Shown here: positions 7,427-63,623 of the stretch, in pieces
Numbering within the stretch: the stretch's first letter is position 1
How the letters are laid out: every line of letters starts with the position of its first letter
Assembly: GCA_016872775.1 (NCBI GenBank)
Contig: VGZA01000008.1
Location: 1-64,000, forward strand
Source: Planctomycetota bacterium
GTDB lineage: Bacteria; Planctomycetota; Planctomycetia; Pirellulales; Pirellulaceae
DNA length: 64,000 nt
Direction of reading: 5' to 3'
The notes under the pieces: model-generated
Seen by the model: only the letters and a program-made list of their open reading frames with translations
Databases searched by the model: none
What the model was told of the DNA's origin: nothing
Made by a program: the position numbers and the translations under genes

Positions 7427-7435
7427 AGCCAGGCT

Positions 7436-8203
7436 CTATTGGCGTCCGCCCGGCTGCGCAAGGGAATCGAGTTGAGCAACGCATTGCCGGATACGTTGAC
7501 TGTTCTCGCCGGCCGTGCGGTACTCGTCGCCGATGGTCTCCAACCCGAAACACAATCCGTCGCGGCGAAATCGCATCGGACTGCGGCGCGTGGCGCCGCC
7601 GTTGACATGGACTTCCCGCACGCCGGTTTCTCGGACCAGGTCGCCAACATGCTCGGGGCGCACTCCGCCACCCGCCATGATTTTAATTCGGCCGGCCGCT
7701 CGGTCGACAAGCCGCCGCAGACACTCGCGGCCCGCAATGGCCGTCGCCTGCTGGCCGGAACTGAGCAGGCGCGTAACCCCCGACGCGATCAATTGTTCCA
7801 CGGCGGCGAGCGGATCAACGGCGAGATCGAACGCGCGATGGAATGTGCAGTCCAACGGTTGGGCAAGCTCGACCATCCGTTGCGTGCGTGGTAAATCGAC
7901 TTCGCCGTCGAGCGTCAGCAGGCCGAACACGGCACCGTCAGCGCCATGCTCGCGCGCCTGCCGCAGGTCGGTTTCCATGACGAGGAACTCGTCGTCGGAA
8001 TAGCAAAAATCGCCGCCTCGCGGACGGATCATGACCATCACTGGAATCACCACGCGCTGGAGCACGACGTCGAGCAGTCCCAGGCTGGGCGTACAACCCC
8101 CTTCCGCGAGATTGCCGCAAAGTTCCAGGCGGTGCGCACCGGCCGACTCGGCCGCCATCGCCGATTCCACACTGTCCACACAGGCTTCAATCAATGTCGA
8201 CAT
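7436..8203 (-). CDS. cutC: CutC family protein (copper homeostasis-associated TIM barrel)
   Basis: The protein has 255 residues and the CutC signature: EACVDSVESAMAAESAGAHR in the first strand and helix, RLELCGNLAEGGCTPS (25-40), MIRPRGGDFCYSDDE (58-72), HGADGAVFGLL, and CTFHRAFD with RLLSSGQ in the second half. CutC folds as a TIM barrel and was linked genetically to copper tolerance in E. coli. Biochemical evidence for direct copper handling is weak, so the name describes the family rather than a proven role. No copper genes are nearby. No ribosome-binding site is obvious before the ATG. Confidence 0.92.
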   Translation of the reverse strand: MSTLIEACVDSVESAMAAESAGAHRLELCGNLAEGGCTPSLGLLDVVLQRVVIPVMVMIRPRGGDFCYSDDEFLVMETDLRQAREHGADGAVFGLLTLDGEVDLPRTQRMVELAQPLDCTFHRAFDLAVDPLAAVEQLIASGVTRLLSSGQQATAIAGRECLRRLVDRAAGRIKIMAGGGVRPEHVGDLVRETGVREVHVNGGATRRSPMRFRRDGLCFGLETIGDEYRTAGENSQRIRQCVAQLDSLAQPGGRQ

Positions 8204-8320
8204 CGATCAGGCGGGCTCCCGGTTCGCATCGGAACAGCCGCGGCCACGTGCCCGCCCGACGAGCAAATCGACTATAACTACGGCTGCCATGAGTTTACTT
8301 CGCCGGAGTTAATAGCACCA

Positions 8321-9628
8321 ATGCGGTTCCTTCGCTTGGCCACTTTTCTGTTTGCAACCACGATCGGGACATTGACGCGAGCCCCCGCGGCGGGCAACGA
8401 TTGGCCGCAATGGCGCGGGCCGCGTCGGGATGGCACCTGGACCGAATCGGGAATCGTCGAGTCGTTTTCCAGCCCCAAAATCCCCTGGAAATGGTCGGTG
8501 CCAGTCGGCCCCGGCTATAGCGGTCCCTCCGTGGCGGCCGGGCGGGTCGTCATTACCGATCGGCCCAAGGATACCGATCCGTCCGTGGAACGCGTGCTGT
8601 GCTTCGATGCGGAAACCGGAAAAGAACTCTGGAACTTCGCCTACCCCTGCGAGTACCAGAAGATCGGCTACACCGCGGGGCCTCGCGCGAATGCCACGCT
8701 CGACGGCGGATTCGTTTTTGCGCTTGGCGCGATGGGGCATATGCACTGCCTCGAACTGCAAAGCGGGCGCGTCGTCTGGCAGCGCGACCTGAATCGCGAC
8801 TACCAGATCGAAATGCCGATCTGGGGGATCGCCGCCGCGCCGCTCATCGTCGATTCGACGGTGATTCTGCATATCGGCGGCTCGCAAGGCGCCTGCGTCG
8901 TCGGACTCGACAGGCATAACGGAAAGGAAAAATGGCGTTCTCTGAACGATCGCGGTCAATATTCGTCGCCGATCGTCGTCGAACAGGCAGGTGAGAACGT
9001 CGTGGTTTGCTGGACCGGGGATTCGGTTGCCGGACTGCGCGCCGCCGACGGCAGCCCGCTGTGGCGATACGAATTCAAGCCGCGTAAAATGCCGATCGGC
9101 GTCGCAACGCCGATCGTCGATAAAGGGCGCCTGTTCGTCACATCCTTCTATGACGGCTCTCTGCTGCTGAACCTGAATCGGAACAGCGCCGCCGTGGAAC
9201 GGGCCTGGCAACGCTGTGGAGCCAGCGAAACCCAGACCGACGCGCTGCAATCGATCATCTCGACGCCGCTGTTCATCGACGATCATATTTACGGTGTCGA
9301 CAGCTATGGCGAATTACGTTGCCTCGACGCTCGCACCGGCGAACGCGTCTGGGAGGACCTGCGAGCGACCCCCAAGGCGCGCTGGAGTACCATTCACTTC
9401 GTCCGCAATGCCGACAACGTTTGGATGTTCAACGAGCGAGGGGAACTGATTATCAGCCGACTCAGCCCCAAAGGATTCCAGGAAATCAGCCGCGCGCAGC
9501 TGATCGCTCCCACCCGTGAACAACTCAACCAGCGCAACGGCGTCTGCTGGTCCCACCCGGCCTTCGCTGGCCGCCATATCTTCATCCGCAACGACGAAAC
9601 AATGGTTTGCGCAAGCCTGGCGAAGTAG
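8321..9628 (+). CDS. Secreted PQQ-like (WD40-like) beta-propeller protein
   Basis: Starting at the ATG behind GGAG gives 435 residues with a clear signal peptide (RFLRLATFLFATTIGTL, cleavage near APAAG). The mature protein opens with DWPQWRGPRRDGTW, a hallmark of planctomycete secreted PQQ-like proteins. Several propeller blades follow with the PQQ-repeat core: LCFDAETGKELW, HCLELQSGRVVWQRDL, GLDRHNGKEKWRSL, AGLRAADGSPLWRYE, and RCLDARTGERVWEDL. It is expected in the periplasm. PQQ-type repeats here do not prove PQQ binding or dehydrogenase activity, because no calcium or PQQ active-site pattern could be identified. Many homologs are structural or scaffold proteins. The start upstream in the same frame would remove the signal peptide and was rejected. 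Confidence 0.85.
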   Translation: MRFLRLATFLFATTIGTLTRAPAAGNDWPQWRGPRRDGTWTESGIVESFSSPKIPWKWSVPVGPGYSGPSVAAGRVVITDRPKDTDPSVERVLCFDAETGKELWNFAYPCEYQKIGYTAGPRANATLDGGFVFALGAMGHMHCLELQSGRVVWQRDLNRDYQIEMPIWGIAAAPLIVDSTVILHIGGSQGACVVGLDRHNGKEKWRSLNDRGQYSSPIVVEQAGENVVVCWTGDSVAGLRAADGSPLWRYEFKPRKMPIGVATPIVDKGRLFVTSFYDGSLLLNLNRNSAAVERAWQRCGASETQTDALQSIISTPLFIDDHIYGVDSYGELRCLDARTGERVWEDLRATPKARWSTIHFVRNADNVWMFNERGELIISRLSPKGFQEISRAQLIAPTREQLNQRNGVCWSHPAFAGRHIFIRNDETMVCASLAK

Positions 9629-47138: not shown

Positions 47139-47254
47139 GCAGGGGCTGGAAGCCCCTGCCACGGCGTTCCCCGTTCCCCGTTCCCCGTTCCCCGTTCCCC
47201 GTTCCCCGTTCCCCGTTCCCCGTTCCCCATTCCCCATTCCCCATTCCCCATTCC
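47139..47254. repeat. Composite repeat: 21-bp palindrome plus heptamer array (GTTCCCC)9(ATTCCCC)3
   Basis: GCAGGGGCTGGAAGCCCCTGC (47139-47159) has 9-bp arms. After a 6-base spacer (CACGGC), nine perfect GTTCCCC units run 47166-47228, then three ATTCCCC and a partial unit to 47254. Reverse-complemented, the layout equals that at 9628-9672. It occupies most of the gap between the ABC ATPase gene and the AtuA-like gene. Confidence 0.9.
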
Positions 47255-50556: not shown

Positions 50557-51417
50557 TTGTCGGTTCGAGTGATCCCGCGGCTCGACATCAAGGGCCCGAA
50601 CCTCGTCAAGGGCGTACATATGGAGGGCTTGCGCGTACTGGGCAAGCCCGAACAGTTTGCACGCCATTATTACGAGTCGGGTGCTGACGAGCTGCTCTAT
50701 ATGGACGTCGTCGCGAGCTTGTATGGCCGCAATAGTCTGCTCGACCTGATCGAGCGGACCGCGCGCGAGGTCTTCATCCCGCTTACGGTCGGCGGCGGAA
50801 TCCGCTCCGTCGCCGACATTCGTCGCGTGCTGCGCGCCGGCGCGGACAAGGTGGCGATCAACACCGAAGCGGTGCGGCGGCCGGAATTCATCTGCGAGGC
50901 CGCGCACGTCTTTGGATCGTCGACGATCGTCGTATCGATCGAGGCGATCCGACAGTCGGACGGCCGCTACCTTGCTTACACCGATTGCGGGCGCGAATGG
51001 ACCGGCCTGGACGCCGTCGACTGGGCGGTCAAAGCCGCCGAATTGGGTGCCGGCGAGTTGCTGGTCTCCAGCGTCGATCGTGACGGAACCGGCAAGGGAT
51101 TTGACGTTGAGCTGACACGCCAGATAGCGCGGCTGGTATCGGTACCGGTGATTGCCTCGGGAGGCGCCGGTCAGCTGGAACATGTATGCGAAGTCGTCGA
51201 TCGTGGCTCGGCGGACGCCGTCGGCCTGGCGTCCCTGCTGCATTATGATTTTGTCCGCTCCGGCGCGCCCAGCGGCCATGCGACAACGCCAAAGACCCAG
51301 GAAGGAAACCTGGAATTCGTACGGCGGCAGACCGCCTGGTCGGCCATTCGCAGCGTGCCACTCGCAGAAGTCAAACAATGTCTGTGGAACAGCGGCGTGG
51401 ATTGCCGCCTGAATTAG
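50557..51417 (+). CDS. HisF-like ammonia-channel subunit for sugar amidination (not histidine biosynthesis)
   Basis: The 286-residue TIM barrel is homologous to the HisF subunit of imidazole-glycerol-phosphate synthase. RLDIKGPNLVKGV, GGGIRSVADIRRVL and SSVDRDGTGKGFD are conserved, so D10 and the DRD strand correspond to catalytic residues of HisF. However, the position equal to D130 in T. maritima HisF is E129 here (VVSIEAIR), and the tail is about 30 residues longer. Together with HisH and WbpG neighbours this is the HisF2-type partner used to supply ammonia for acetamidino formation. TTG start, with weak AGAGAGAG upstream. Confidence 0.88.
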   Translation: MSVRVIPRLDIKGPNLVKGVHMEGLRVLGKPEQFARHYYESGADELLYMDVVASLYGRNSLLDLIERTAREVFIPLTVGGGIRSVADIRRVLRAGADKVAINTEAVRRPEFICEAAHVFGSSTIVVSIEAIRQSDGRYLAYTDCGREWTGLDAVDWAVKAAELGAGELLVSSVDRDGTGKGFDVELTRQIARLVSVPVIASGGAGQLEHVCEVVDRGSADAVGLASLLHYDFVRSGAPSGHATTPKTQEGNLEFVRRQTAWSAIRSVPLAEVKQCLWNSGVDCRLN

Positions 51418-51493
51418 GAGCCCGTTATTACGTAGGTCAGGTCACCCGACCCGACCGGCCTGGAAACAGGCCAGCATAGCGACCCGAATAGGA

Positions 51494-52246
51494 ATGGATT
51501 CCGAGATGAACGGCAACAACCCGCCCCGGGTGGCGATCGTCGATTACCAGGCCGGCAACCTCTACAGTGTGGAGCACGCCTGCCGTTGCGCCGGCATGGA
51601 ACCTTGGGTCACAAGCGATCCGAAATCGTTATCCGGCGTTGCCGGCGTCATCCTGCCGGGAGTCGGCGCATTCGGTGATGCGATGCGGGCCCTGCGGGAT
51701 TCGGGACTGGCCGATGCGTTGATTGACTTCTCCCATTCCGGCCGGCCGCTGATCGGTATTTGCCTGGGGATGCAACTGCTGCTCGGCGAGAGCCACGAAT
51801 TCGGCCGCCATCGCGGTCTCGAACTGATCGAAGGTGAGGTACGCCGCCTGCAGATCAGCACGACGAACCGCGCGGCGCGCGTGCCGCACGTTGGCTGGAG
51901 CCGCATCTATCCCGCGACACGCGGGAGCCAACTCGTTGACTGGGCTGCGACGCCCCTGAACGGTATTGAACCTGGACAATCGATGTACTTTGTCCATTCG
52001 TACGTGGTATGCCCCGCACAACGCGATCTGGTCGTGGCCGAGTCGGTGCATGGGGACACTGTTTTCTGCTCCGCATTGCGGCGCAAGAACGTCTGGGCCT
52101 TTCAATTTCATCCCGAGAAGAGCGGCCCGCGAGGCATCCAGCTTTATCGAAACATCGCCGGACTATTTCAAGCCGACACATCGATGCCGCTCGCCGGAGA
52201 ATCGCGCGACGGCTCGCCAAGGAGAGAACTACGTCATGCCGCATGA
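51494..52246 (+). CDS. HisH-like class I glutamine amidotransferase for sugar amidination
   Basis: Releases ammonia from glutamine and feeds it through the HisF-like barrel. Of 250 residues, the triad is visible: C90 in IGICLGMQLL, H206 and E208 in QFHPEKSG; the oxyanion region is GVGAFGDAM. The C-terminus is extended by about 25 residues (TSMPLAGESRDGSPRRELRH) relative to HisH. The next gene starts inside its last 11 bases. There is an in-frame ATG at 51506 with slightly better spacing. HisF/HisH pairs in this setting are seen in wbpG, pseA and lag-type clusters. Confidence 0.9.
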   Translation: MDSEMNGNNPPRVAIVDYQAGNLYSVEHACRCAGMEPWVTSDPKSLSGVAGVILPGVGAFGDAMRALRDSGLADALIDFSHSGRPLIGICLGMQLLLGESHEFGRHRGLELIEGEVRRLQISTTNRAARVPHVGWSRIYPATRGSQLVDWAATPLNGIEPGQSMYFVHSYVVCPAQRDLVVAESVHGDTVFCSALRRKNVWAFQFHPEKSGPRGIQLYRNIAGLFQADTSMPLAGESRDGSPRRELRHAA

Positions 52247-53510
52247 ATCGTTGCCAGCCTACTACGGACTACCAGAGCATGTGACGTTTTGTACGCGTTG
52301 CGTGATGTCGAACCAGCGGCCCTGCTCCTATCCAGAGTTCCGACATACCAAAGACCGTCGCACGCCCACGATGCACGTCGACGCCGAAGGAGTCTGCGAC
52401 GCATGCCGGTACGCGGAAACCAAGGAGCGCATCGACTGGGACGATCGGGAACGGCAATTGCGGGCCTTGCTGGACCGCTATCGCAGCAACGACGGCTCGT
52501 ACGATTGCCTGGTTCCGGGAAGCGGCGGCAAAGACAGCATCTACGCGGCGCACCTGCTCAAAACCAGGTACGGCATGCACCCGCTGACCTGTACATGGCC
52601 GCCGATCATGTACACCGACATCGGCCGTCAGAATTACCTCAACTGGTGCGACATCGGCGGCTTCGACAATGTCACGTTCAAGCAGAACGGCCGCGCGATG
52701 AAACTGCTCACGCGATTGTCGATTGAAAACCTGCTGCATCCGTTTCAGACCTTCATCCTCGGCCAGAAAAATCTGGCTCCAAAGCTGGCACTGAAATTCG
52801 GGATCCCGCTGGTGTTCTACGGAGAGAACGAAGCGGAATACGGCAATCCAATCGCTGACAACAATCAATCGCTGCGCGACAAGTCGTACCACACGATGAA
52901 CGACATATCCAAATTGCACCTGGCGGGAGTTCCGGTTCCCGAGTTGATCGAGCGGTACAAGATCCCCCTGGTCGACCTGATGACCTATCTTCCCGCCGAA
53001 CATACCTTGTACGATCGCCAGCAGATCGACGTCCATTATCTCGGATACTACGTGAAATGGACGCCGCAGGAGGCCTACTATTATTCGGTGGAGCATTCGG
53101 GCTTCCAGGCCAACCCGGTGCGCACGGAGGGCACTTACAGCAAGTACAACAGCCTGGATGACAAGATCGACGGATTTCACTACTACACCACCTACATCAA
53201 ATTCGGTCTGGGCCGAGCGAGCTATGACGCGTCCCAGGAAATTCGGAATCGGCACCTGACGCGCGAAGAAGCCGTCGCACTGGTCCGACGCTTCGACGGC
53301 GAATTTCCCGCACGGTACTTTCAGGAGATCATGGACTTCATCGGCATGCAGCCGGACCAGTTTCACGCGCTTTGCGACAAGTTCCGATCACCGCATCTCT
53401 GGGTGTGCGAGGGGGGCGATTGGCGACTGCGACATCCGGTCTGGCAGCAGTTGACGGCGGTCGATTCGGAGCAAATCGCGGAATCGGGCACGAACCGCAA
53501 CGCCGCCTGA
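52236..53510 (+). CDS. N-acetyl sugar amidotransferase (WbpG/PseA/PtmG family)
   Basis: Converts an N-acetyl group on a sugar or nonulosonic acid precursor into an acetimidoyl (acetamidino) group, using ammonia from HisH/HisF. The 424-residue ATP-pyrophosphatase-like enzyme has PP-loop PGSGGKDSIYAAH (94-106). Four cysteines, C19, C22 (CTRCVMS), C54 and C57 (CDACR), form the family's zinc-like site. GENEAEYGNP and YSKYNSLDDKIDGFHYYTTYI are further hallmarks, with FGLGRASYDASQEIR following. In Campylobacter the equivalent PtmG acts on legionaminic acid and PseA on pseudaminic acid. AAGGAGA precedes the ATG by eleven bases. Confidence 0.92.
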   Translation: MPHESLPAYYGLPEHVTFCTRCVMSNQRPCSYPEFRHTKDRRTPTMHVDAEGVCDACRYAETKERIDWDDRERQLRALLDRYRSNDGSYDCLVPGSGGKDSIYAAHLLKTRYGMHPLTCTWPPIMYTDIGRQNYLNWCDIGGFDNVTFKQNGRAMKLLTRLSIENLLHPFQTFILGQKNLAPKLALKFGIPLVFYGENEAEYGNPIADNNQSLRDKSYHTMNDISKLHLAGVPVPELIERYKIPLVDLMTYLPAEHTLYDRQQIDVHYLGYYVKWTPQEAYYYSVEHSGFQANPVRTEGTYSKYNSLDDKIDGFHYYTTYIKFGLGRASYDASQEIRNRHLTREEAVALVRRFDGEFPARYFQEIMDFIGMQPDQFHALCDKFRSPHLWVCEGGDWRLRHPVWQQLTAVDSEQIAESGTNRNAA

Positions 53511-53548
53511 GGCGGGTGAACAGCCAATCGCAGGAAAGGACCTTGGCG

Positions 53549-54325
53549 ATGAGCAGCATGACGGGAGCATGGCAGGTTTGGGATCAAGCGACATCGTATG
53601 GACAAACGCTCTATCGCCGCGCGGTCGGCGAACTGCCGGAAATGGAGAGCGCCAAGAAGATGGCCCGCGAGGCCGGCAGAGTTTTCCGCAACGGGGACTC
53701 GATTCTGGATGTCGGCTGCGGCGCGGGCCATTATCTGCCCAGCCTGCGGCGCCTGATACCGACCCCCTTTGCCTATCACGGCATCGACGCCACGGAAAAC
53801 TATGTCGAGCTGGCGAAAAAAGCATTCGCCGGACAACCCCATGTGGAATTCTCCGTCGGCAGTATTTTCGACCTCGACCTGCCCGACCGCAGCTATGACG
53901 TGGTAATGTGCAATAACGTACTGCTGCACATGCCCTCGATCGCTCGCCCGTTGTCCGAACTCGTCCGCGTCGCACGGCACAAAGTCCTGGTTCGATTCCT
54001 CTGCGGACAACGTTCGTTCATCATCCAGGATGTGCACCCGCAGGCCGACGGTGAGGAATTCGATTCGCAGTTGCGTCCGGTCGGATTCCATTACTACAAC
54101 ATCTACAGTCAGGCGTACGTGCACCGATTGATCTCCGACTTGACGGGGGTGGAGTCGTGGACGATCGCGCCCGACACCGACTATGACCAACAGAAGATCC
54201 TTGACTCGGCCACCGAGCATGATGGGGCGCATGACGCGTCCGGCATCACCGGCGGTTATCAGGTCAATGGCTACATACTGCAGCCCTGGGCCGTGCTGGA
54301 AATCACGCGTACCCCCAGCCAGTAG
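53549..54325 (+). CDS. SAM-dependent methyltransferase, PtmH-like candidate
   Basis: The 258-residue class I methyltransferase has motif I ILDVGCGAGHYL (52-63), motif II GIDATENYVELAKKAF, and motif IV DVVMCNNVLLHMPSI. The N-terminal part (WDQATSYGQTLYRRAVGELP) is a helical cap of the type found in small-molecule methyltransferases. It sits between the amidotransferase and the activated-sugar genes, the same relation as ptmH to ptmG in Campylobacter, where N-methylation of the acetimidoyl group gives the N-methyl-acetimidoyl form. Direct homology to PtmH is inferred from context and length; O-methylation is the alternative. RBS AGGAAAGGA upstream. Confidence 0.72.
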   Translation: MSSMTGAWQVWDQATSYGQTLYRRAVGELPEMESAKKMAREAGRVFRNGDSILDVGCGAGHYLPSLRRLIPTPFAYHGIDATENYVELAKKAFAGQPHVEFSVGSIFDLDLPDRSYDVVMCNNVLLHMPSIARPLSELVRVARHKVLVRFLCGQRSFIIQDVHPQADGEEFDSQLRPVGFHYYNIYSQAYVHRLISDLTGVESWTIAPDTDYDQQKILDSATEHDGAHDASGITGGYQVNGYILQPWAVLEITRTPSQ

Positions 54326-54398
54326 GCTGTCCTGAGACATCAAGTGCCCGCTTTCGCGGAGCGAAAGCCAACATGAACCGATCACGCAAGGATGCGAC

Positions 54399-55463
54399 AT
54401 GTCATTACTCGAAGAGTGCCTGATAGGACGGGAAGATACGATTCGTGAAGCGATGTCTCGAATCAATCGCGGCGCTCGCGGCATCGTGTTGGTGGTCGAC
54501 GCGCAACAACGGCTCGAACATACGGTCACCGACGGCGATATTCGCCGCGCCATCCTGGCCGGTGACGGCCTCGATCAGCCAATCAGCTCGCTCATCGCCC
54601 GTAAACCGTCCGGGCCGATCACGGCTCCGTGCGACCTGCCCGTCGACCAGCAGGTCCGCCGGATGCAGGACCATGGCGTCCGACAGTTGCCGTTGATCGA
54701 TGCACGGGGACGGGTCACCGGAATGACTTTTCTGGAAGACCTGATTCGGGAGCCGGATAGCAGCAGCGTGCAGGCAGTGATCATGGCCGGAGGTTTCGGC
54801 AAACGACTGCGACCACTGACCGATCAGACGCCCAAACCGATGCTGCCGATCCGAGGCAAGCCGCTGATGGAGCGTACGATCAACCGCCTGAAGTCGGCCG
54901 GTATTCGCAACATCAATATCACCACCTGCTATCTGCCGGAAAAAATCAGCGGTTATTTCGGCAACGGCAGCCAACTGGGAGTCGACCTGCACTACGTGGC
55001 GGAGGATCAACCGCTCGGAACCGCCGGCGCACTGGGACTGCTGACGTCGAACCAAGACACCCTGCTGGTTCTGAACGGCGACATCCTGACCAGCGTCGAC
55101 TTCCGCTCGATGATCGAATTTCACCGCCACCATAACGCCGATTTGACTGTGGGAGTCCGCCAGTACGGTGTCGAAGTACCGTTCGGTGTCGTGGAAACGC
55201 AACAAGGCATGGTGCGATCCCTGCGCGAGAAGCCGACCGTCGACTTTCTGGTCAATGCCGGAATTTACCTGGTGGAGCCCTCCGCGAGGTCGCTAATCCC
55301 TCAACAGCGACGTTTCGACATGACCGAATTGATTCAAGCGATGCTTCACGCGGGGCGCAATGTTATGAGCTATCCCATCGTCGAGTATTGGATCGACATC
55401 GGAAAGCTCGACGACTTTCAAAAGGCGCAACAGGAGTCCCAGCAGCTGCGCTGGGCGTCGTGA
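54399..55463 (+). CDS. CBS-domain sugar-1-phosphate nucleotidyltransferase (PtmE-like)
   Basis: 354 residues. A CBS pair occupies 1-125 (LVVDAQQRLEHTVTDGDIRR, then GVRQLPLIDARGRVTGMTF). A nucleotidyltransferase domain follows with MAGGFGKRLRPLTDQTPKPM starting at 129, VLNGDILTSVDF (metal-binding Asp), and LREKPTVDFLVNAGIYL. PtmE of Campylobacter has this order and makes GDP-GlcN-type or GDP-activated glucosamine from GlcN-1-P for the GDP-linked legionaminic route. A UDP- or dTDP-product is also possible on sequence alone. RBS AAGGA seven bases before the ATG. Confidence 0.85.
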   Translation: MSLLEECLIGREDTIREAMSRINRGARGIVLVVDAQQRLEHTVTDGDIRRAILAGDGLDQPISSLIARKPSGPITAPCDLPVDQQVRRMQDHGVRQLPLIDARGRVTGMTFLEDLIREPDSSSVQAVIMAGGFGKRLRPLTDQTPKPMLPIRGKPLMERTINRLKSAGIRNINITTCYLPEKISGYFGNGSQLGVDLHYVAEDQPLGTAGALGLLTSNQDTLLVLNGDILTSVDFRSMIEFHRHHNADLTVGVRQYGVEVPFGVVETQQGMVRSLREKPTVDFLVNAGIYLVEPSARSLIPQQRRFDMTELIQAMLHAGRNVMSYPIVEYWIDIGKLDDFQKAQQESQQLRWAS

Positions 55464-55497
55464 AAAGATCGAGGAGAACCAGGCGGGAATTTGGTCG

Positions 55498-56481
55498 ATG
55501 GATTGGAGCAAGCAACGCGTATTGGTGACGGGCGCCGGTGGTTTCGTCGGCAGCCACCTTACCGAGCGACTGATGGCGCTGGGAGCCACAGTCCGCGCGC
55601 TGGTCCATTATCGCGGATCGGGTTCTGCGGGTTGGCTCGATCAGTTCCCGGAACATGCGAGCCTCGAGAAGATTCCGGGCGATATCTGCGACGCGGGCCT
55701 GGTGCGCGAATCGATGCGTGGCTGCGCGATCGTCTACCACCTTGCAGCCCTGATTGCCATTCCCTATTCCTATCGAGCTCCAGGGTCTTACGTGCGAACG
55801 AATATCGAGGGCACGTTGAACGTACTGGAAGCCGCGCGCGAATTACGGCCGGACCGCGTCGTGCATACTTCGACCAGCGAAGTCTACGGCACTGCCCGTT
55901 ACGTTCCGATCGATGAACAACACCCGCTGCAGGGTCAGTCGCCCTACTCGGCGACCAAAATCGCCGCGGACAAACTGGTCGAGGCCTACCATCGATCTTA
56001 CGCTGTACGCGCAGTCACGATCCGTCCGTTCAATACCTTCGGTCCACGGCAGTCAACCCGGGCCGTGATACCGACCATCATGGCCCAGTGCTTGACCCGT
56101 TCTTCCGTACGGCTGGGCAACCTTTCCGCCACCCGCGATTTGAATTTCGTGGCGAATACGGTGGACGGATTTATCGCCGCGGCCGAATCGGAAGCGGCAC
56201 TTGGCGAAACCATCCAACTGGGGAGCGGTGCGGAAATCACGATCGGTGAACTCGCCGAGCGGATCATCCGCCTGAACGGCAAGAACGTGTCGATCGAGAC
56301 GGATCCACAACGTCTGCGCCCCGACGCCAGCGAAGTGCAGCGGCTGATCGCCGACAATCGCAAGGCCGAGAAGGTTCTGGGCTGGCGTCCTCGTATCGAA
56401 CTGGATGAAGGCCTGCGGGTCACACTGAACTGGGTCCGTGAAAATCTCGAAAGGTGCCAGGCCAATGACTACCACGTCTGA
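55498..56481 (+). CDS. NAD-dependent 4,6-dehydratase, LegB-like (SDR extended family)
   Basis: The 327-residue product has the NAD-binding TGAGGFVGSH (11-20), the active-site TSTSEVYG (124-131) and YSATK with Y150 and K154. PFNTFGPRQSTRAVIPTIM is the substrate-binding segment shared by LegB/PglF-like and GDP/UDP-sugar 4,6-dehydratases. LegB forms the 4-keto-6-deoxy sugar from GDP- or UDP-GlcNAc as the first committed step toward legionaminic acid. The last residues overlap the next gene by 17 bases. An epimerase of UDP-sugars is the alternative name. Confidence 0.87.
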   Translation: MDWSKQRVLVTGAGGFVGSHLTERLMALGATVRALVHYRGSGSAGWLDQFPEHASLEKIPGDICDAGLVRESMRGCAIVYHLAALIAIPYSYRAPGSYVRTNIEGTLNVLEAARELRPDRVVHTSTSEVYGTARYVPIDEQHPLQGQSPYSATKIAADKLVEAYHRSYAVRAVTIRPFNTFGPRQSTRAVIPTIMAQCLTRSSVRLGNLSATRDLNFVANTVDGFIAAAESEAALGETIQLGSGAEITIGELAERIIRLNGKNVSIETDPQRLRPDASEVQRLIADNRKAEKVLGWRPRIELDEGLRVTLNWVRENLERCQANDYHV

Positions 56482-57706
56482 GCCATCCTCCGCGGTGGAA
56501 CGTCGCCCGATTCCGCTCAGCGTACCCTGCCTCGACGGCCGGGAGATGGAATATGTGCGCGAGTGCCTGGAGACGAACTGGATCTCGTCGGCCGGCCCGT
56601 TTGTAACGAAGTTTGAAGCCGAACTCGCCGCGCGAATCGGTGTTCCGCACGCGGTCGCCACCAGTTCAGGAACCGCCGCCCTGCACCTTGCCTTGCTTGC
56701 CGCCGACGTTCAGCGCAATGACGAGGTGATCGTACCGACGCTCACATTCATTGCCACGGCAAACGCGGTGCGGTATGTCGGCGCATGGCCGGTATTCGTC
56801 GACGCCGAATCGAAACACTGGCAGATCGACGTGGAACTGGTGCGCCGCTTTCTGGAGGAGCATTGCGAGATGCGCGACGGCCGGCTGGTCAATTGCCGCA
56901 CCTGGCGGCGCGTGCGCGCCATCCTGCCCGTACATCTGCTGGGACATCCCGCGGATCTCGAACCGCTCTTGGAACTCGCTCGGCGATTCTCCCTGACGGT
57001 CATCGAGGACTGTGCGGAGAGCCTGGGCGCCGAATATCATTCTCGGCCGACGGGCTCCTGGGGCATCGCCGGCTGTTTCAGTTTCAACGGTAACAAGACC
57101 TTTTCCACGGGCGGAGGAGGCATGCTCGTGACGCGCGACGAGTCGCTGGCGCTGCGAGCCAGGCATCTCTCGACGCAGGCCAAGTCGGGAACGGACGAGT
57201 ACATCCATGACGATGTCGGATTCAACTATCGCATGCCGAACATACTCGCGGCAATTGGCTGCGCTCAACTGGAGCGATTCGAAATACTGCTCGATTCCAA
57301 GCGACAGATCGCCGCTCACTACCGACGAGCCCTCGCCGGCGTGCCAGGCCTTACTTTTCCGATCGAAGCGCTCGATGTTCGCTCGTCCAACTGGCTGTCG
57401 ACCGTGCGGATCGACGCCGCAGCGTTCGGCAGCTCAAGTCGGCAATTGCGGGAGATCTTGCGACAGGCGTCCGTCGAATCGCGGCCGCTCTGGCAGCCGA
57501 TGCACCTGAGTCCCGCCCATCGCGGCGCACCTCATCTTCTGTCAGGAGTTGCCGAACAGCTTTACGAAGACTGCCTGAGTCTTCCATCCTCGGCGGACCT
57601 TGCGGATTCATCGTTGCGGTACGTCGTCGATACCATCCGTGGCGCGGCGCGGGAAGACTCGCGCGACGGACGATCCCCGCCTGCCCAGCTGCGCGGCGCC
57701 GCTTAG
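56465..57706 (+). CDS. PLP-dependent 4-aminotransferase, LegC-like
   Basis: The 413-residue DegT/DnrJ/EryC1-type enzyme adds the 4-amino group to the keto sugar made by LegB. It has TSSGTAALHLALLAA (67-81), HLLGHPADLEPL, IEDCAESLGAEY with D182, the PLP-binding NGNKTFSTGGGG with Lys211, and NYRMPNILAAIGCAQLER. LegC, unlike PseC, delivers the equatorial amino group of the bacillosamine-like precursor; stereochemistry cannot be read from sequence. An upstream in-frame start at 56438 is inside legB and less likely. No LegH acetyltransferase gene follows, although one is needed next. Confidence 0.87.
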   Translation: MTTTSEPSSAVERRPIPLSVPCLDGREMEYVRECLETNWISSAGPFVTKFEAELAARIGVPHAVATSSGTAALHLALLAADVQRNDEVIVPTLTFIATANAVRYVGAWPVFVDAESKHWQIDVELVRRFLEEHCEMRDGRLVNCRTWRRVRAILPVHLLGHPADLEPLLELARRFSLTVIEDCAESLGAEYHSRPTGSWGIAGCFSFNGNKTFSTGGGGMLVTRDESLALRARHLSTQAKSGTDEYIHDDVGFNYRMPNILAAIGCAQLERFEILLDSKRQIAAHYRRALAGVPGLTFPIEALDVRSSNWLSTVRIDAAAFGSSSRQLREILRQASVESRPLWQPMHLSPAHRGAPHLLSGVAEQLYEDCLSLPSSADLADSSLRYVVDTIRGAAREDSRDGRSPPAQLRGAA

Positions 57707-57718
57707 GAGAACTGCAGA

Positions 57719-59242
57719 GTGTCGTTGGACCAACCATTCCCACCCATGGCATGCAACCGGGCGATCTTCCTGCCCTCCGCGGAATCCTCGTTGAAGGAGA
57801 TGCTCTATATCGCGCAGTGCCTGGAACGGCGCGGGACGCTGGTGCCGTCGTTCGTCATCCGCACGCCGATGCGCGAGCATTGGCTCGACGAGATCCGAAA
57901 GGCTGGTCATGAACTAATCGTCACTCCCGCGGCCCAGCGGGCCATCGTGGATCCCGAATTGCCGGCACAGGGCGACTCGGCAAAACCGGTCGACCCGACT
58001 CTAGACGCGGTGGGGCCGGCGATCGTTGCCCGGCTGCTGGCGGCGCCACGTCGGGTACTTCGGTGGGTCGGAAACCGGCTGATGCTCGATTCCCTCAGTC
58101 GGTATGCACGGGCCATGCGCCGGTTCCGGACGGACTGCAGGCAGGCCAGTCGACTGCTCGATCAACTCGTACCCGCACTGCTGGTTACACCCAGCGATCG
58201 CACGATCGGATTGGAGACCGCTTTGCTTGCGGAGGGTCGTCGGCGCGGTATTCCGTCGCTGGTGATCCCCTGGTGTCTCTGGACACCACGGTCCGAGGTT
58301 TACGCAAGAATGGAGCGATCAAACATCGAGCAAGCGGTGAACCTGGCGCGGCTCTTGAATCGGCGCGTGGCCCACCGTTTCCCGGGCCAGGTACTGGAAC
58401 AAGACGAACATCGATTGCTGTTTGCCCCCGGGGAGACGATCCTGGCGGCGAATCGGATGGGCATACTGCCGCCACGGCCTTTCGCTTTTTTTGGCGGCGG
58501 CGGCCTGGCCGACCGCGTGGCGGTCGAGAGCCCCGCCTTGCGCGCCGTCTGCCTCCAGCGGGGCGTGCCTGCGACGAACGTGCGATTGACCGGTCGAGCA
58601 TCGGCCGATCAGGTTGCAGCGCGATTGCGGCAGGGGCCGAGGTACCGCGCGCAACTGCAGATGGAGTTCGGCCTGCGCCCGCATCTCAAGACCATTCTCT
58701 GCGCCGTTCCGAACACGGCGGAACAGAATCTATGCAGCTGGACCCAGCATGAACAGGACACGCATCGGCTCTTTCAGGCGATGCGTTCCGCGGGCGCCTG
58801 CAACGTACTGCTGAACCTGCATCCCAAAAGCAACCCAGGGACCTACCGGGCGATTGCCGAACAGTACCGATTTACGATCGCCGAAGGGCGGGCGATCGAA
58901 GAACTGCTGCCAGCCTGCGATCTGTTTGTCAGCACGTTTTCGTCGACCATTGTCACCGCGATCGGGTGTCATAAACCGGTGTTGAATCTGGATATCTATG
59001 GGGCTCGCGACGATATGTTTGGGCGATGCCAGGGTGTCGTCACCGTACGTGACTGGGATGCGGCGGCGGTGGAGCTTCGTTCCCTGATCAGGGACGAAGT
59101 GCGATTCCAGCGACTGCTCGAAGCCCAGCAGGTAGATGCCTCACATTGGGGCATGTTCGACGGACATTGCGGGGCTCGACTGATGGTCGAAATGGAGAAC
59201 CTGGTACGCAATCGACTCGCGGCACGAAGAGAGGCGGCGTAA
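57719..59242 (+). CDS. GT-B-like surface-carbohydrate protein (candidate glycosyltransferase)
   Basis: 507 residues from a GTG nine bases after AGGAGA. I do not recognise a named family. The C-terminal half resembles GT-B or UDP-GlcNAc 2-epimerase-type folds: ILCAVPNTAEQNLCSWTQ, NVLLNLHPKSNPGTYRAIAE, and CDLFVSTFSSTIVTAIGCHK, where an H...P...K and the STFSST loop mimic nucleotide-sugar sites of CDP-glycerol glycerophosphotransferase-like and capsule transferases. The N-terminal half has no clear signature; one region (165-200) is Arg-rich. Inside the nonulosonic acid run, it is a candidate for transferring the sugar to its acceptor. It is not an acetyltransferase by any motif seen. Confidence 0.62.
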   Translation: MSLDQPFPPMACNRAIFLPSAESSLKEMLYIAQCLERRGTLVPSFVIRTPMREHWLDEIRKAGHELIVTPAAQRAIVDPELPAQGDSAKPVDPTLDAVGPAIVARLLAAPRRVLRWVGNRLMLDSLSRYARAMRRFRTDCRQASRLLDQLVPALLVTPSDRTIGLETALLAEGRRRGIPSLVIPWCLWTPRSEVYARMERSNIEQAVNLARLLNRRVAHRFPGQVLEQDEHRLLFAPGETILAANRMGILPPRPFAFFGGGGLADRVAVESPALRAVCLQRGVPATNVRLTGRASADQVAARLRQGPRYRAQLQMEFGLRPHLKTILCAVPNTAEQNLCSWTQHEQDTHRLFQAMRSAGACNVLLNLHPKSNPGTYRAIAEQYRFTIAEGRAIEELLPACDLFVSTFSSTIVTAIGCHKPVLNLDIYGARDDMFGRCQGVVTVRDWDAAAVELRSLIRDEVRFQRLLEAQQVDASHWGMFDGHCGARLMVEMENLVRNRLAARREAA

Positions 59243-59247
59243 GAACA

Positions 59248-60300
59248 ATGGATTCCTTCAAGATCGCTCAACATGATATTGGTCGAGGGGCAGGATGTTT
59301 CGTCATCGGCGAAGTCGCCCAGGCCCACGACGGCAGCCTGGGCATGGCCCACGCATTTATCGACGCGATTGCCGCGACCGGCGCGCATGCCGTCAAGTTC
59401 CAAACGCACCTCGCGACCGCGGAAAGTTCGCCCGAGGAACCGTGGCGCGTCAAGTTCAGCCGTCAGGATGCCAGCCGGTATGACTACTGGCGGCGGATGG
59501 AGTTCAGCGCCGATCAATGGCGCGGCTTGCGCGATCACGCGCGGGATGCCGGACTGGTGTTTCTCAGCAGCCCGTTTTCCGTGGAAGCCGTCACCTTGCT
59601 CGACCGCCTGGAAATGCCGGCTTGGAAGGTCGCGTCAGGCGAAGTCAACAATCCACTGCTGCTGGAAGTCATGTCCCGCACCGGCAAACCGGCAATGATC
59701 TCGAGTGGCATGTCGACCTGGGAGGAACTCGACGCCGCCGTGGCGCGTTTTCGCGAACAAAACTGTCCGGTCGCCTTGTTGCAATGCACCACAGCCTATC
59801 CCTGTCCACCCGAACGGATCGGGCTCGATGTGCTCGAACAGCTTCGCCAGCGATACAACGCTCCCGTCGGACTCTCCGACCACTCCGGAACAATCTACGC
59901 GGCGATTGCCGCCGCCACGATGGGCGCGAGTCTGATCGAACTGCACGTGACAATGAGTCGGGAGATGTTCGGCCCGGACGTACCGGCCTCCGTTACTACC
60001 AGCGAACTGCGGCAAGTGGTCGAGGGGGTGCGATTCGTGCATCGGGCCCTGTCCTCTCGAACCAACAAGGACCAGCAAGCCCAGGAAATGCAACCGTTGC
60101 GAGCGGCGTTTGGCAAGAGCCTGGTCGCACGCCACGCCCTGCCCGCCGGGACGATCCTCCGCAAGGAAGATCTGACGGCAAAGAAACCGGGCCGGGGAAT
60201 CCCGGCCTCCGAATTCCAGTCGGTCGTCGGCAAGCGAGTTTGCCGCGCGCTGAGCGCCGACGAATTCCTGCGTCTCGACGATTTTGCGGGCGCGGGTTGA
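59248..60300 (+). CDS. Nonulosonic acid synthase, LegI/NeuB family
   Basis: Condenses the 6-deoxy-2,4-diamido hexose released by LegG with phosphoenolpyruvate to give the nine-carbon legionaminic-type acid. The 350 residues contain an N-terminal TIM barrel: FVIGEVAQAHDGSLGMAHAF, AVKFQTHLATAESSP, FLSSPFSVEAVTLLDRLEMP, WKVASGEVNNPLLLEV, ALLQCTTAYPCPPERIGL and VGLSDHSGTIYAAIAAATMG. A C-terminal SAF/antifreeze-like domain (KSLVARHALPAGTILRKEDL, KPGRGIPASEF) follows at ~285-345. Metal and PEP ligands are expected in these barrel segments. Starts five bases after the previous stop. Confidence 0.93.
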   Translation: MDSFKIAQHDIGRGAGCFVIGEVAQAHDGSLGMAHAFIDAIAATGAHAVKFQTHLATAESSPEEPWRVKFSRQDASRYDYWRRMEFSADQWRGLRDHARDAGLVFLSSPFSVEAVTLLDRLEMPAWKVASGEVNNPLLLEVMSRTGKPAMISSGMSTWEELDAAVARFREQNCPVALLQCTTAYPCPPERIGLDVLEQLRQRYNAPVGLSDHSGTIYAAIAAATMGASLIELHVTMSREMFGPDVPASVTTSELRQVVEGVRFVHRALSSRTNKDQQAQEMQPLRAAFGKSLVARHALPAGTILRKEDLTAKKPGRGIPASEFQSVVGKRVCRALSADEFLRLDDFAGAG

Positions 60301-60331
60301 CTCATCGATCGAACATGGAGAAAGGCCGTCC

Positions 60332-61543
60332 ATGACAACCAGGAAAGTCTGCGTGGCGATCACCGCCCGCGCCAGCTACTCGCGAGTTCGATCCGCATTG
60401 TGCGCCATCCAGAACGATCGGCGCCTTGAGTTGCAGATCGTCGCCGCGGCGTCCTCGGTGCTCGATCGCTATGGCAACGCCGTCAAGTTCATCCAGCAGG
60501 ATGGATTTCCCGTCCACGCACGCATCTTCAATATTGTCGAAGGCGAAAACCTGGTGACCTCGGCCAAGTCGACGGGGTTGGGACTCGTGGAGATGGCGAC
60601 CGTCCTGGCCAACCTTGAGCCCGACATGGTGGTGACGATCGCCGACCGTTACGAGACGATCGCGACATCGATTGCGGCCGCCTACATGAATATCCCGCTG
60701 GTGCATCTGCAAGGCGGTGAAATCACGGGATCGATTGATGAAAAAGTCCGCCACGCCAACACCAAGCTGGCTGACATCCATTTCGTCTGCTCGACGCGCG
60801 CCCGTGACCGCGTCATCCGCATGGGAGAATGCCCCGAACGCGTCTTCGTCACCGGCTGCCCGTCCATCGACCTTGCGGATGAGATTCTGAAGGATCCGAC
60901 GCCCGAAGCCGACCCGTTTCGTCGATTCGGCGGCGTCGGCCCGGAACTGGACCTGAGCAGCGGTTACTTGATCGTGCTGCAACATCCGGTGACGACGGAG
61001 TACGAATCCGCGCGCGGCCAGGCCTGGGAAACGCTGCGCGCCATCGCGGAACTTGACATGCCGACACTCTGGTTCTGGCCGAACGTCGATGCGGGGTCGG
61101 ACGGAACCTCGAATGCCCTCCGATCTTTCCGCGAACTCCACAATCCGCGCAATATTCACTTCTTCAAGCATGTCGACTCGCTGCAGTTTCTGCGACTGGC
61201 CTACCACAGCCGCGCGATTGTCGGCAACTCCAGCGTCGCGATCCGCGAGTGCTCCTACTTGGGTGTCCCAGCCGTCAATATCGGCACACGCCAGCAAGGG
61301 CGCGACCGGGGAAGCAATGTGATCGACGTGGAGCATCACCAATCGGAAATCGTACGGGCAGTCAGATCGCATATCCGCCACGGACGATTTGCCAGCGATC
61401 CACTGTATGGCGACGGCCAGTCGGGACGGCGCATCGCCGATCTATTGGCAACCGTTCCGCTGTCGATCGACAAGACGCTGTACGAAGGCGAAGTGCTTCC
61501 GGAAGCGGCTCGCGGCCGCACCAGTGCACGACAGGCGGCGTAG
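60332..61543 (+). CDS. Hydrolysing NDP-sugar 2-epimerase, LegG/NeuC family
   Basis: Removes the nucleotide from, and 2-epimerises, the activated diamino sugar to give a free hexose for LegI. 403 residues. ITARASYSRVRSALCAI is the substrate-loop form of the family's TGTRAEYG; GGEITGSIDEKVRHANTKLA near 128-147 and VFVTGCPSIDLAD follow, then the hydrolase/epimerase GYLIVLQHPVTTEYESA and HSRAIVGNSSVAIRECSYLG segments with GTRQQGRDRG. NeuC proteins act on UDP-GlcNAc, LegG on GDP- or UDP-linked diacetamido sugars; the neighbours suggest the latter. RBS AAAGG seven bases upstream. Confidence 0.92.
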   Translation: MTTRKVCVAITARASYSRVRSALCAIQNDRRLELQIVAAASSVLDRYGNAVKFIQQDGFPVHARIFNIVEGENLVTSAKSTGLGLVEMATVLANLEPDMVVTIADRYETIATSIAAAYMNIPLVHLQGGEITGSIDEKVRHANTKLADIHFVCSTRARDRVIRMGECPERVFVTGCPSIDLADEILKDPTPEADPFRRFGGVGPELDLSSGYLIVLQHPVTTEYESARGQAWETLRAIAELDMPTLWFWPNVDAGSDGTSNALRSFRELHNPRNIHFFKHVDSLQFLRLAYHSRAIVGNSSVAIRECSYLGVPAVNIGTRQQGRDRGSNVIDVEHHQSEIVRAVRSHIRHGRFASDPLYGDGQSGRRIADLLATVPLSIDKTLYEGEVLPEAARGRTSARQAA

Positions 61544-61573
61544 AGGCATGCATCGCGGAAAGGAGTCGCTGGC

Positions 61574-62305
61574 ATGGCGGAACGGACGGAAATCCTGGCT
61601 CTGATCCCGGCGCGCGGCGGATCGAAGGGAATTCCCGGCAAGAATATCCGGCTGCTGGGTGGGCGGCCGTTGATCGATTATGCCTGGGCCGCCGCGTCGG
61701 GCTGTCCCAGCGTCACGCGCATCATCGTCGATACGGACTCCGACGCCATAGCGGCGGTGGCGCGACAACGCGGAGCAGAGGTACCTTACCTGCGCCCCGC
61801 GGACCTTGCGCAGGACGCGACGCCCACCATCGATGTTGTGATCCATGCGCTCCGTTGGCTGGCGGATCATCAAGACTATCGTCCGGAGATTGTGCTGCTG
61901 CTGCAACCAACCGCTCCGCTGCGAACCAGTGCTCACCTCGCGGAAGCATTGCGGCGACTTCAGAATGAACCTGGCGCCGACGCCATCGTAAGCGTCAGCG
62001 CGGTACCGGCACACTACAACCCGCTATGGCAATATCGGCTGGACGACGGCACGTTGCGTCTGTTCTGTGGCGGCGCACCTGGCGACGTCGTGCGACGCCG
62101 GCAGGATTTGCCGCCGACCTATATTCGCAACGGCGCCATCTACGCCACGCGGACGGAAACCGTGCTCCGCGGCTCGTTGTACGGGGAACGCTGTCTGGCT
62201 TATGAGATGCCCGCGGAGTTGCATCTGAACATCGACACCTGGGAAGACTGGCAGCGGGCGGAAGCTTTGTTGGAACAGAAGGAGATGTGGCGTGCGGCAA
62301 GCTGA
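61574..62305 (+). CDS. CMP-nonulosonate cytidylyltransferase, LegF/NeuA family
   Basis: Activates the nonulosonic acid with CTP to the CMP-sugar. 243 residues with IPARGGSKGIPGKNIRLLGG (11-30) binding CTP phosphates, IIVDTDSDAIAAVARQRGAE, LLLQPTAPLRTSAHLAEAL, YIRNGAIYATRTETVL, and the metal-binding AELHLNIDTWEDWQRAEA near the end. This is the LegF/NeuA order and length. The next gene overlaps its last 14 bases. RBS AAGGAG nine bases before the ATG. Confidence 0.94.
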   Translation: MAERTEILALIPARGGSKGIPGKNIRLLGGRPLIDYAWAAASGCPSVTRIIVDTDSDAIAAVARQRGAEVPYLRPADLAQDATPTIDVVIHALRWLADHQDYRPEIVLLLQPTAPLRTSAHLAEALRRLQNEPGADAIVSVSAVPAHYNPLWQYRLDDGTLRLFCGGAPGDVVRRRQDLPPTYIRNGAIYATRTETVLRGSLYGERCLAYEMPAELHLNIDTWEDWQRAEALLEQKEMWRAAS

Positions 62306-63623
62306 TGTGGTTCTGTTCGTCGAACATGTGTCTCGGGAACTGGATATCGCCTGCGTGATCCGGCATCTTGCCTGGCAGCGTTTCGGCATGGAAGTCGGCG
62401 TGGCGTCGCTGACGCAGGGGTTGGAACAGACATTGCGTGGAACGCCGCCCAGCGTGATTGCAGTTCCCTACTTCTATTCCCGACGCGACATGGGCATTCG
62501 CGAAATTCTCATGCGCTGGCCGGGGGTGCGCGTGGTCAACCTGGCATATGAACAACTGGTATCCCCTGGCAATCAACAATTTAAAGTGCCCCGGGACCCG
62601 ATCGCCCGCGAACATGTGTTACACCTGGCCGTCGGCGATTTTTTCCGCGAATTTCTGGTCCGGCATGGCGTGCCCAGAGATCGGGTACTGATGAGCGGGA
62701 GCCTGGCCTGTTCCTTGTACCTGGCGCCTTACCGCCGCTATTTTGAATCACAGCGCGCGCGGATGGCGACTCAGTACGGACTGGAAATAAATCGTCCCTG
62801 GGTGTTTTTCCCCGAAAACTACGGCGCGGCATTTTTTTCCGATCGGGAAGTGGAGCGGCGCGTTCGCGAAGGCTGCGACCGCCGGGACGTTGAAGAATAC
62901 CGCCGCACCTCCCGCGATTCCCTGACGCAGGTTGCGGACTGGTGCCGACACGCCGCGCTCCACGAAGATGTTGAAATCATCATCCGGCCGCGACCCGCCA
63001 CTTCGGTCGACACCCTGCGCGCATCGTTCCGTGAGGCCGCCGGGGAACTGCCGCCCGACCGGCTGCACTTCATCAAACAGGAGTCCGTCCGCCAATGGAC
63101 GCTGGCCTGCGATACCGTGGTCTCGTCCTTCAGTACAACCCTGGTCGAGGCGGCGGTTGCGGATCGTCCGGCCTATCTGCTGATGCCCTCCCCCCTGCCC
63201 CGCTCAATGCATTGCGAGTGGCACGATCTGGCACCGAAAATCGCGACCGCCGATGAATTCCAGCGTCTGCTGCGCGAAGGCCCGTCGCCGTTTGCCACTT
63301 CGTTGCTCCGCCAATGGGCACAACTCGAACTACTCAGCTACGGCGATCCGATCTCCAAAGTTGCCGCGATTCTCGCCGCGGCTGTGGGACGCGATTGCCA
63401 TCTGCCTCCGGTCCCCTCGGCACCCGTCCTCGACCGGATGCGGCTCCAATGGAAGCGATCCAGGCGGCAATGGAAGCAACGACTATTGACTTCAACCGCA
63501 TCTCCAGCCGCGAATCCCTGCGAATCCCCCGATGCGTTTGATACGCACGATGTCGATGAACGGACCGCCGCATGGGAACAGACGCTCGACCTGCCTTCCC
63601 GGGATCTCCGAGCCTGTGCGTAA
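62292..63623 (+). CDS. Surface carbohydrate biosynthesis protein, GT-B-like
   Basis: The 443-residue product begins with GTG, seven bases after AAGGAGA, overlapping the cytidylyltransferase gene. ADVVLFVEHVSRELDIACVI is a short nucleotide-binding-like first strand; RWPGVRVVNLAYEQLVSPGN and VLMSGSLACSLYL follow. The C-terminal half has EIIIRPRPATSVDTLRASFR and LACDTVVSSFSTTLVEAAVA, similar in layout to the STFSST segment of the gene at 57719 and to polysaccharide/sialyl-type GT-B enzymes. It resembles proteins annotated as surface carbohydrate biosynthesis in Legionella and Leptospira nonulosonic loci. Exact reaction unknown; CMP-sugar transferase is a candidate. The C-terminal ~60 residues are low complexity. 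Confidence 0.65.
   Translation: MRQADVVLFVEHVSRELDIACVIRHLAWQRFGMEVGVASLTQGLEQTLRGTPPSVIAVPYFYSRRDMGIREILMRWPGVRVVNLAYEQLVSPGNQQFKVPRDPIAREHVLHLAVGDFFREFLVRHGVPRDRVLMSGSLACSLYLAPYRRYFESQRARMATQYGLEINRPWVFFPENYGAAFFSDREVERRVREGCDRRDVEEYRRTSRDSLTQVADWCRHAALHEDVEIIIRPRPATSVDTLRASFREAAGELPPDRLHFIKQESVRQWTLACDTVVSSFSTTLVEAAVADRPAYLLMPSPLPRSMHCEWHDLAPKIATADEFQRLLREGPSPFATSLLRQWAQLELLSYGDPISKVAAILAAAVGRDCHLPPVPSAPVLDRMRLQWKRSRRQWKQRLLTSTASPAANPCESPDAFDTHDVDERTAAWEQTLDLPSRDLRACA

Follow-up and report, generated by a model that had tools for sequence, protein, structure and literature searches.

A twelve-gene run in a planctomycete probably joins half of a legionaminic acid cassette to a second nonulosonic acid module

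Introduction

Does a compact run of genes that bears the names of a pathway encode that pathway? The question is raised by twelve co-directional genes in the genome of a planctomycete of the family Pirellulaceae (genome size 5.85 Mb; G000 among the genomes compared here). The genes occupy positions 50557 to 63623, on the + strand, of the window, by which we mean the whole 64,000-nucleotide stretch of DNA analysed (bases 1-64000 of contig C8). The original prediction, made from the letters alone, held that the run leads to an amidinated form of legionaminic acid (Leg), a nonulosonic acid (NulO). Gene families, synteny and phylogenetic separation argue for a different reading: the run is, with good probability, two NulO modules joined, of which module A forms the latter half of an amidinated-Leg cassette, the rest lying on contig C67, and module B belongs to a separate pathway. 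Amidinated Leg thus holds as a prediction at the level of the genome and for one half of the run; it does not hold for the run as a whole.

The run and its missing step

All twelve open reading frames (ORFs) are present in the ORF list and, as originally described, lie in one direction with overlaps or short gaps: with adjusted starts the eleven junctions measure from -17 to +76 bases, which makes it likely that the run is a single operon with one transcript. (The starts of the amidotransferase, 52236, and of the methyltransferase, 53549, are ATG positions taken from the translations.) The gene kinds that had been named agree with scans of the window proteins against Pfam and NCBIfam family models, for which curated cut-offs were used, although LegB, LegI, LegF, HisF and the last gene, GTb, score under the cut-offs of their best models.

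The Leg pathway requires LegH. Neither LegH nor any other acetyltransferase is found among the twelve genes by the ORF list or the family scans, and the slot between LegC and LegI is occupied by a gene of another kind, GTa. The claim that the compact run is the pathway was thus wrong on LegH, and most likely wrong also on the LegG, LegI and LegF steps.

The genome holds six matches to TIGR03570 (NeuD/LegH), one of them above cut-off, on C67 (the same model matches in all 14 control genomes and exceeds its cut-off in four). This gene is the last in a row of five co-directional genes: glycosyltransferase-like (EpsD model 96 bits, cut-off 370), LegF, LegI, LegG and LegH. Matches to PF03102 (NeuB) number four in the genome, with 335 bits on C67, 229 in the window and 33 for each of the other two (Pfam cut-off 22). 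The TIGR03569 cut-off of 400 is passed by the C67 NeuB (454 bits), as by the LegI of locus L121 in another planctomycete (461), and is failed by the window synthase (307) and by its counterparts in loci L116 (288) and L125 (302); both the window LegG (355 bits, cut-off 236) and the C67 LegG pass TIGR03568. Window and C67 together therefore supply LegB, LegC, LegH, LegG, LegI, LegF and a PtmE-like protein, LegB and both LegF proteins being under their model cut-offs.

The cassette in other genomes

A scan with the amidotransferase (AmT) as query yielded 45 AmT loci; many end at contig ends, so that the cassette counts are lower bounds. The order LegF-LegI-LegG-LegH-HisF-HisH-AmT-PtmE-LegB-LegC, intervening genes ignored, occurs in four of the 45 (L011, L019, L026 and L027), which come from different phyla, the LegB of L019 being weak. 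HisF, HisH, AmT, PtmE, LegB, LegC, LegI, LegG and LegF occur together in at least 14 of the 45, at least 10 of which also have LegH. Since a cassette-type LegF-LegI-LegG-LegH stands on C67 and the rest in the window, the order appears to have been cut, in the present genome, between LegH and HisF.

A same-family control is provided by G032, a genome of the window's family that is 99% complete. One of its loci, L150, combines LegF, LegI, LegG and LegH of the C67 type (52, 60, 52 and 45% identity to C67) with PtmE, LegC, HisF, HisH and AmT of the window type (54, 54, 64, 50 and 48%). On a separate contig, locus L153 holds LegI, LegG and LegF of the window type (64, 65 and 55%), with a homologue of GTb (45% over 431 residues) about 6.3 kb from this triple. 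The identities pair crosswise: the window LegI is 63.5% identical to that of L153 and 34% to that of L150, the C67 LegI 60% to L150 and 33% to L153; the corresponding values for LegF are 55% (L153) and 41% (L150) for the window, and 52% (L150) and 46% (L153) for C67. For LegG, the window protein is 65% identical to the copy on contig C64 of G032 and 32% to the copy on C60, the C67 protein 31% and 52%, respectively. In G026, of the same family, locus L151 lies at a contig end with LegF-LegI-LegG-LegH-PtmE, and an AmT of 67% identity lies on a separate contig.

Some details of these loci deserve mention in their own right. The LegI match of L151 (7037-7288) consists of two short overlapping pieces, either a broken gene or an assembly fault. 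Between LegG and LegH of L019, an Elusimicrobia cassette, are genes that by eye are formyltransferase-like and PIG-L-like deacetylase genes (6163-8436), which suggests an N-acyl swap. In two Gemmatales genomes with Leg cassettes that have no LegH (G060 and G061; L075 and L076), a lone NeuD/LegH adjoins a gene that by eye resembles an ABC polysaccharide-exporter permease; in L076 the ATPase gene of the exporter is present as well. In locus L136 of G166, the vicinity of a LegC-like gene (38%) holds HisF, HisH and a second amidotransferase of only distant relationship (30%).

Trees point the same way as synteny. A NeuC tree of 35 rows puts the C67 enzyme in an eight-row cassette clade (support 100/99) and the window enzyme in a 12-row clade (100/100); constraining the latter to join the canonical group of 19 rows worsens the fit by 141 log units (approximately unbiased [AU] test, p = 2.7e-9), the constrained clade having been named after the tree had been inspected. 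A NeuB tree of 23 rows unites the window enzyme with L116, L117 and L125 (100/100); C67 and Escherichia coli K1 are among the 19 rows outside this clade. Earlier 34-row trees agreed for NeuC; there the window NeuB was a long branch of no resolved placement. In the LegF tree the C67 protein groups with L011 and L027 (99/98).

Module A

Module A begins with a HisF-like protein (50557-51417), a putative ammonia-channel subunit that scores 272 bits against TIGR00735 (cut-off 294.6) and also matches WbuZ. The true hisF of the genome is on contig C7 (388 bits, above cut-off), and by sequence the window HisF is a paralogue of it. An 11-row alignment shows a C-terminal insert that the C7 HisF lacks and that the window HisF has in common with five HisFs from cassettes (L005, L006, L011, L027 and L036); at a position where the C7 protein carries Asp, these six carry Glu. 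In L043 the cassette HisF has the Glu and no insert, and in L023 it has neither. The HisH-like glutaminase (51494-52246) reaches 183 bits against TIGR01855 (cut-off 105).

The amidotransferase (52236-53510) is, as had been proposed, of the WbpG/PseA/PtmG (or WbuX) kind, an N-acetyl sugar amidotransferase (NASAT): it scores 345 bits against TIGR03573 (cut-off 203) and matches the Legionella NASAT 8WEX with 528 bits across 403 residues. The tetracysteine CxxC...GxCxxC and the PP-loop SGGxDS, the motifs by which NASATs are reported to be defined (PMC10607449), are present as CTRC, GVCDAC and SGGKDS. Next but one is the PtmE-like sugar-1-phosphate nucleotidyltransferase (54399-55463), with CBS and NTP_transferase domains, which is 54% identical to the cassette PtmE of G032. 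The 4,6-dehydratase LegB (55498-56481) scores 421 bits against TIGR04180 (cut-off 475), and the aminotransferase LegC (56465-57706) 436 against TIGR04181 (cut-off 420).

We infer the substrates and products of both modules, as we do the single transcript, the transfer step and the target at the surface. Module A would be the latter half of a widespread cassette that leads to CMP-5-acetamidino-7-acetamido-legionaminic acid. In it, PtmE would form the GDP-sugar, LegB would dehydrate it and LegC aminate it; the C67 locus would supply acetylation (LegH), 2-epimerisation and hydrolysis (LegG), phosphoenolpyruvate condensation (LegI) and CMP activation (LegF). HisH would release ammonia from glutamine, HisF relay it, and NASAT, with ATP, convert an N-acetyl group of Leg to acetamidino.

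Module B

The distribution of the window LegG was surveyed in 392 planctomycete-phylum genomes, a listing outside which G032 falls; up to four candidates were scored per genome, so that misses are possible. NeuC-type matches at E<=1e-40 occur in at least 72 genomes, and at E<=1e-80 in at least 10, the present one included. Eight of the nine other genomes in the stricter set have no amidotransferase match, and the ninth, G166, has one at 30%. LegC is above cut-off in three of the nine (G118, G406 and G408). In G118 the full Leg locus, L121, is on a contig other than that of the window-type NeuC; in G406 and G408 we rejected LegC as a sign of Leg, its neighbours being a NeuD-like gene and, by eye, a PglC-like sugar transferase gene, a bacillosamine-type arrangement.

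In three other planctomycetes (L116, L117 and L125) the genes form a NeuB-NeuC-NeuA triple. Within these stretches we found no match to LegC, nor a LegB or PtmE of Leg grade; L116 and L117 have LegB- or PtmE-like matches at 25-31% only. L122 and L124 show NeuC-NeuA, and L118 and L123 NeuC alone, within the stretch examined.

In the window, module B comprises a divergent NeuB-family synthase (LegI; 59248-60300), a NeuC-family hydrolysing 2-epimerase resembling GNE (LegG; 60332-61543), a CMP-sugar synthetase (LegF; 61574-62305) and GTb (62292-63623). The best Protein Data Bank (PDB) match of the window LegG is 4zht, the UDP-GlcNAc 2-epimerase domain of human GNE (246 bits, against 183 for the Acinetobacter baumannii NeuC 5zlr); for the C67 LegG the best match is 5zlr (237 against 171). 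We dropped PDB names as proof of substrate, since entry 5xvs is titled UDP-GlcNAc 2-epimerase NeuC and its molecule name reads GDP/UDP-diNAcBac.

The synthase has its own mark at the active site. In a 39-row alignment (rows longer than 300 residues, with L119, L120, L124 and L126 set aside) the metal-binding His pair and Asp (NmNeuB positions 215, 236 and 247, mapped by offset from K1) are kept in all 39 synthases. The column of NmNeuB Arg314 holds Lys in all five module B synthases (window, L116, L117, L125 and L153) and Arg in the 34 others; in a separate alignment it holds Arg in L124 and a gap in L119, L120 and L126. Arg314 is reported to position the N-acetyl group of ManNAc, the R314K enzyme being active and R314A not (PMC6795526). 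Because R314K keeps activity, Lys is compatible with a working enzyme, yet it points to a changed pocket.

As no LegB or LegC accompanies module B elsewhere and its NeuC resembles GNE, the simplest reading is that module B, with no need of either, would most likely lead from UDP-GlcNAc through ManNAc to an N-acetylneuraminic acid (Neu5Ac)-like acid and its CMP form. The synthase subfamily with Lys for Arg, paired with a GNE-like NeuC, also suggests a bolder proposal, which we consider unlikely: that the module B acid is neither Neu5Ac nor Leg, and that the shared operon may let AmT or the methyltransferase modify it, giving a surface glycan that bears a pair of NulOs, of which one or both would be cationic.

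Putative transferases and flanking genes

GTa (57719-59242) finds no match in Pfam at E<=1e-3, nor in NCBIfam at 1e-5; relaxing the threshold to E<=1 brings up TIGR04396 (16.5 bits) and, at 12.9 bits, NF046086, and nothing else. Its structure model (mean predicted confidence, pLDDT, 61) leads in Foldseek to GT-B/2-epimerase folds, with TM scores of 0.26-0.42 among the matches listed. A disguised acetyltransferase in the LegH slot was rejected on this GT-B fold, the model being of moderate quality. GTa matches occur in six of the 392 genomes, the present one included. The three strongest other homologues have NulO genes as neighbours in every case: those of L121 belong to a Leg locus, those of L124 and L126 are of other NeuB/NeuA kinds. 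In G233 roughly 7 kb separate a match from the NeuC of L119, and G107 has a further match. GTa homologues also follow LegC in L005 and L006, loci that were fetched by way of AmT and so are not independent. The modelled GT-B fold and the homologues beside NulO genes make GTa a candidate NulO transferase. The L124 homologue (G353; 1704-7137) stands beside a KdsC/HAD-like phosphatase gene and a synthase gene that by eye is NANS-like (motifs GYSGH and GSDQ); this locus possibly uses a 9-phosphate NulO route.

GTb is a GT-like protein of a surface-carbohydrate kind (TIGR04396, 90 bits, cut-off 125), and its structure model (pLDDT 42) is too poor for use. PDB sequence searches with GTa and GTb returned nothing usable.

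To the left of the run is a LUD-domain gene (family scan) among what by eye are lactate-utilisation genes; to the right, also by eye, are an enoyl-CoA-hydratase-like gene, unrelated genes and then ribosomal genes. No further glycan genes were recognised in the flanks by eye. After an ABC-transporter-like gene, at 47165-47254, is a tandem array of the 7-base unit CGTTCCC (12.9 copies, 98% matches).

Alternative explanations

Several observations weigh against the two-module reading, beginning with the order of steps in the AU test noted above. The packing of the modules into one run suggests joint use, and the window LegI, LegG and LegF might serve Leg. LegB and LegF fall short of their cut-offs, and L150 has a LegB-like gene with no more than 29% identity to the window LegB. 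The gene content of C67 is NeuA, NeuB, NeuC and NeuD, as in the E. coli K1 sialic-acid locus. The window LegF has no resolved placement in its tree, and the LegH tree is weak. Module B varies between genomes: the NeuB next to the window-type NeuC of L119 and L120 is of another kind and shorter. In L023 (SAR116) and L025 (Prochlorococcus), AmT with HisF/HisH lies near a window-clade NeuC, with no good LegB or LegC. The naming conflict of 5xvs belongs here too, as does the fact that the trees place the NeuC and NeuB of K1 with the enzymes of Leg cassettes. K1 NeuC is a true UDP-GlcNAc enzyme. The trees for this reason do not tell substrates: as to whether LegG and LegI group with Leg or with sialic acid enzymes, a question the original prediction had posed, the window enzymes lie outside the Leg-cassette clades, with LegG nearest to GNE, and 'sialic' and 'Leg' are not cleanly separable.

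How do other explanations fare? The first concerns the methyltransferase (MT; 53549-54325), which might make the N-methyl-acetimidoyl form, as the original prediction had allowed; we regard this as doubtful. PtmG is reported as the enzyme for CMP-Leg5Am7Ac, and ORF8/PtmH as that for the N-methyl form (PMC3766260). The window gene is well placed for such a role, between NASAT and PtmE, and L015 has a weakly similar methyltransferase between PtmE and AmT. The protein is, however, a generic class I S-adenosylmethionine-dependent methyltransferase (Methyltransf_11), far under the TIGR03587 cut-off (34 bits against 112); there is no match above 45 bits in L150 or L153, and a weak match in L121 belongs to G118, a genome with no NASAT match. 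Given the generic family and a likeness to L015 that spans only 86 residues (37%), the protein cannot be tied to PtmH from its sequence.

The second, which we hold to be quite improbable, is that the run is a self-contained Leg pathway after all, the window LegG, LegI and LegF performing the Leg steps and C67 being a Neu5Ac locus whose NeuD perhaps also acts as LegH. The tight, co-directional junctions, the NeuA-to-NeuD content of C67 with a NeuB that passes its model, and the position of the K1 enzymes among those of the cassette are what it would explain. It leaves unexplained why LegI, LegG and LegF of the window type are apart from LegB, LegC and PtmE in G032, L116, L117 and L125, and why enzymes of the C67 type stand with AmT, PtmE and LegC in G032, L011 and L027. 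With these results, and with no LegH in the run, we rejected a complete Leg pathway in one run as the most likely explanation.

A third proposal, that NASAT acts on the module B acid to give an acetamidino-neuraminic-type acid instead of, or besides, amidinated Leg, seems to us very improbable. It would account for the gene pairings of L023 and L025 and for a module B NeuB that has no Arg to place the N-acetyl group, and G032, albeit on separate contigs, has a window-type NeuC as well as a NASAT (48%). Yet NASAT is missing from the matches of eight of the nine other genomes with a window-type LegG, and that of G166 is distant; the window NASAT, moreover, is close to that of Legionella. In their own right, L023 and L025 possibly make another amidinated NulO.

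A pseudaminic acid pathway was rejected, PseB (51 bits), PseC (257) and PseI (223) all being under their cut-offs and under the scores of the Leg/Neu models, which upholds the assignment of LegB and LegC to the Leg type; the window LegF matches the PseF model TIGR03584 at 158 bits (cut-off 206). A flagellin/Maf glycosylation route was rejected because PF01973 has no match in the present genome, with a weak control (four of 14 control genomes matched, all archaea; among eight genomes searched, only G063 has a match).

Discussion

The two-module reading places the run among known systems. The reference is the Leg lipopolysaccharide (LPS) locus of Legionella pneumophila, reported to contain NeuA, NeuB, NeuC and NeuD, an aminotransferase, the PtmG homologue ORF28 and the methyltransferase ORF8 (PMC3766260). 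The planctomycete genome shares with it a sequence-close NASAT of the same family, the NeuB/C/A/D and aminotransferase steps and a methyltransferase gene. It differs in that its cassette falls into two loci, that NASAT has a PtmE-like enzyme and dedicated HisF/HisH next to it, and that a second NulO module is joined on.

The CMP-Leg pathway of Campylobacter jejuni, of which PtmE is part, offers a second comparison. It is reported to run by way of GDP-linked precursors, and shares with module A LegB, LegC and a CBS-nucleotidyltransferase of the PtmE kind; unlike it, the planctomycete genome has no Maf/PF01973 match, HisF and HisH are in the run, and the LegI and LegG of the run are not of the cassette type. 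With E. coli K1 neuDBAC (strain UTI89), module B and C67 share the NeuB, NeuC and NeuA gene kinds; the window NeuB and NeuC, however, fall outside the clades that hold the K1 enzymes. The window LegG resembles the GNE domain in sequence; it is bacterial and has no kinase domain.

What is new lies in the arrangement and in the odd synthase, the enzyme kinds having been known already. NulOs themselves are not new for Planctomycetota, having been reported in anammox granular sludge (PMC10483923), and among the papers listed in our searches none was, by its title or the opening of its abstract, on Leg biosynthesis in planctomycetes.

For the prediction of NulOs from genomes, the lesson is that genes of the right names in a compact run may represent two fused pathways, with missing steps elsewhere. 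The present genome offers a clear test, with two synthases and two predicted products. The Legionella-type acetamidino-Leg cassette is placed in bacteria from the environment that span several phyla, including Planctomycetota; and a free-living planctomycete appears to carry most of a known pathway for a cationic relative of sialic acid, the half that is missing from the run being elsewhere in its genome.

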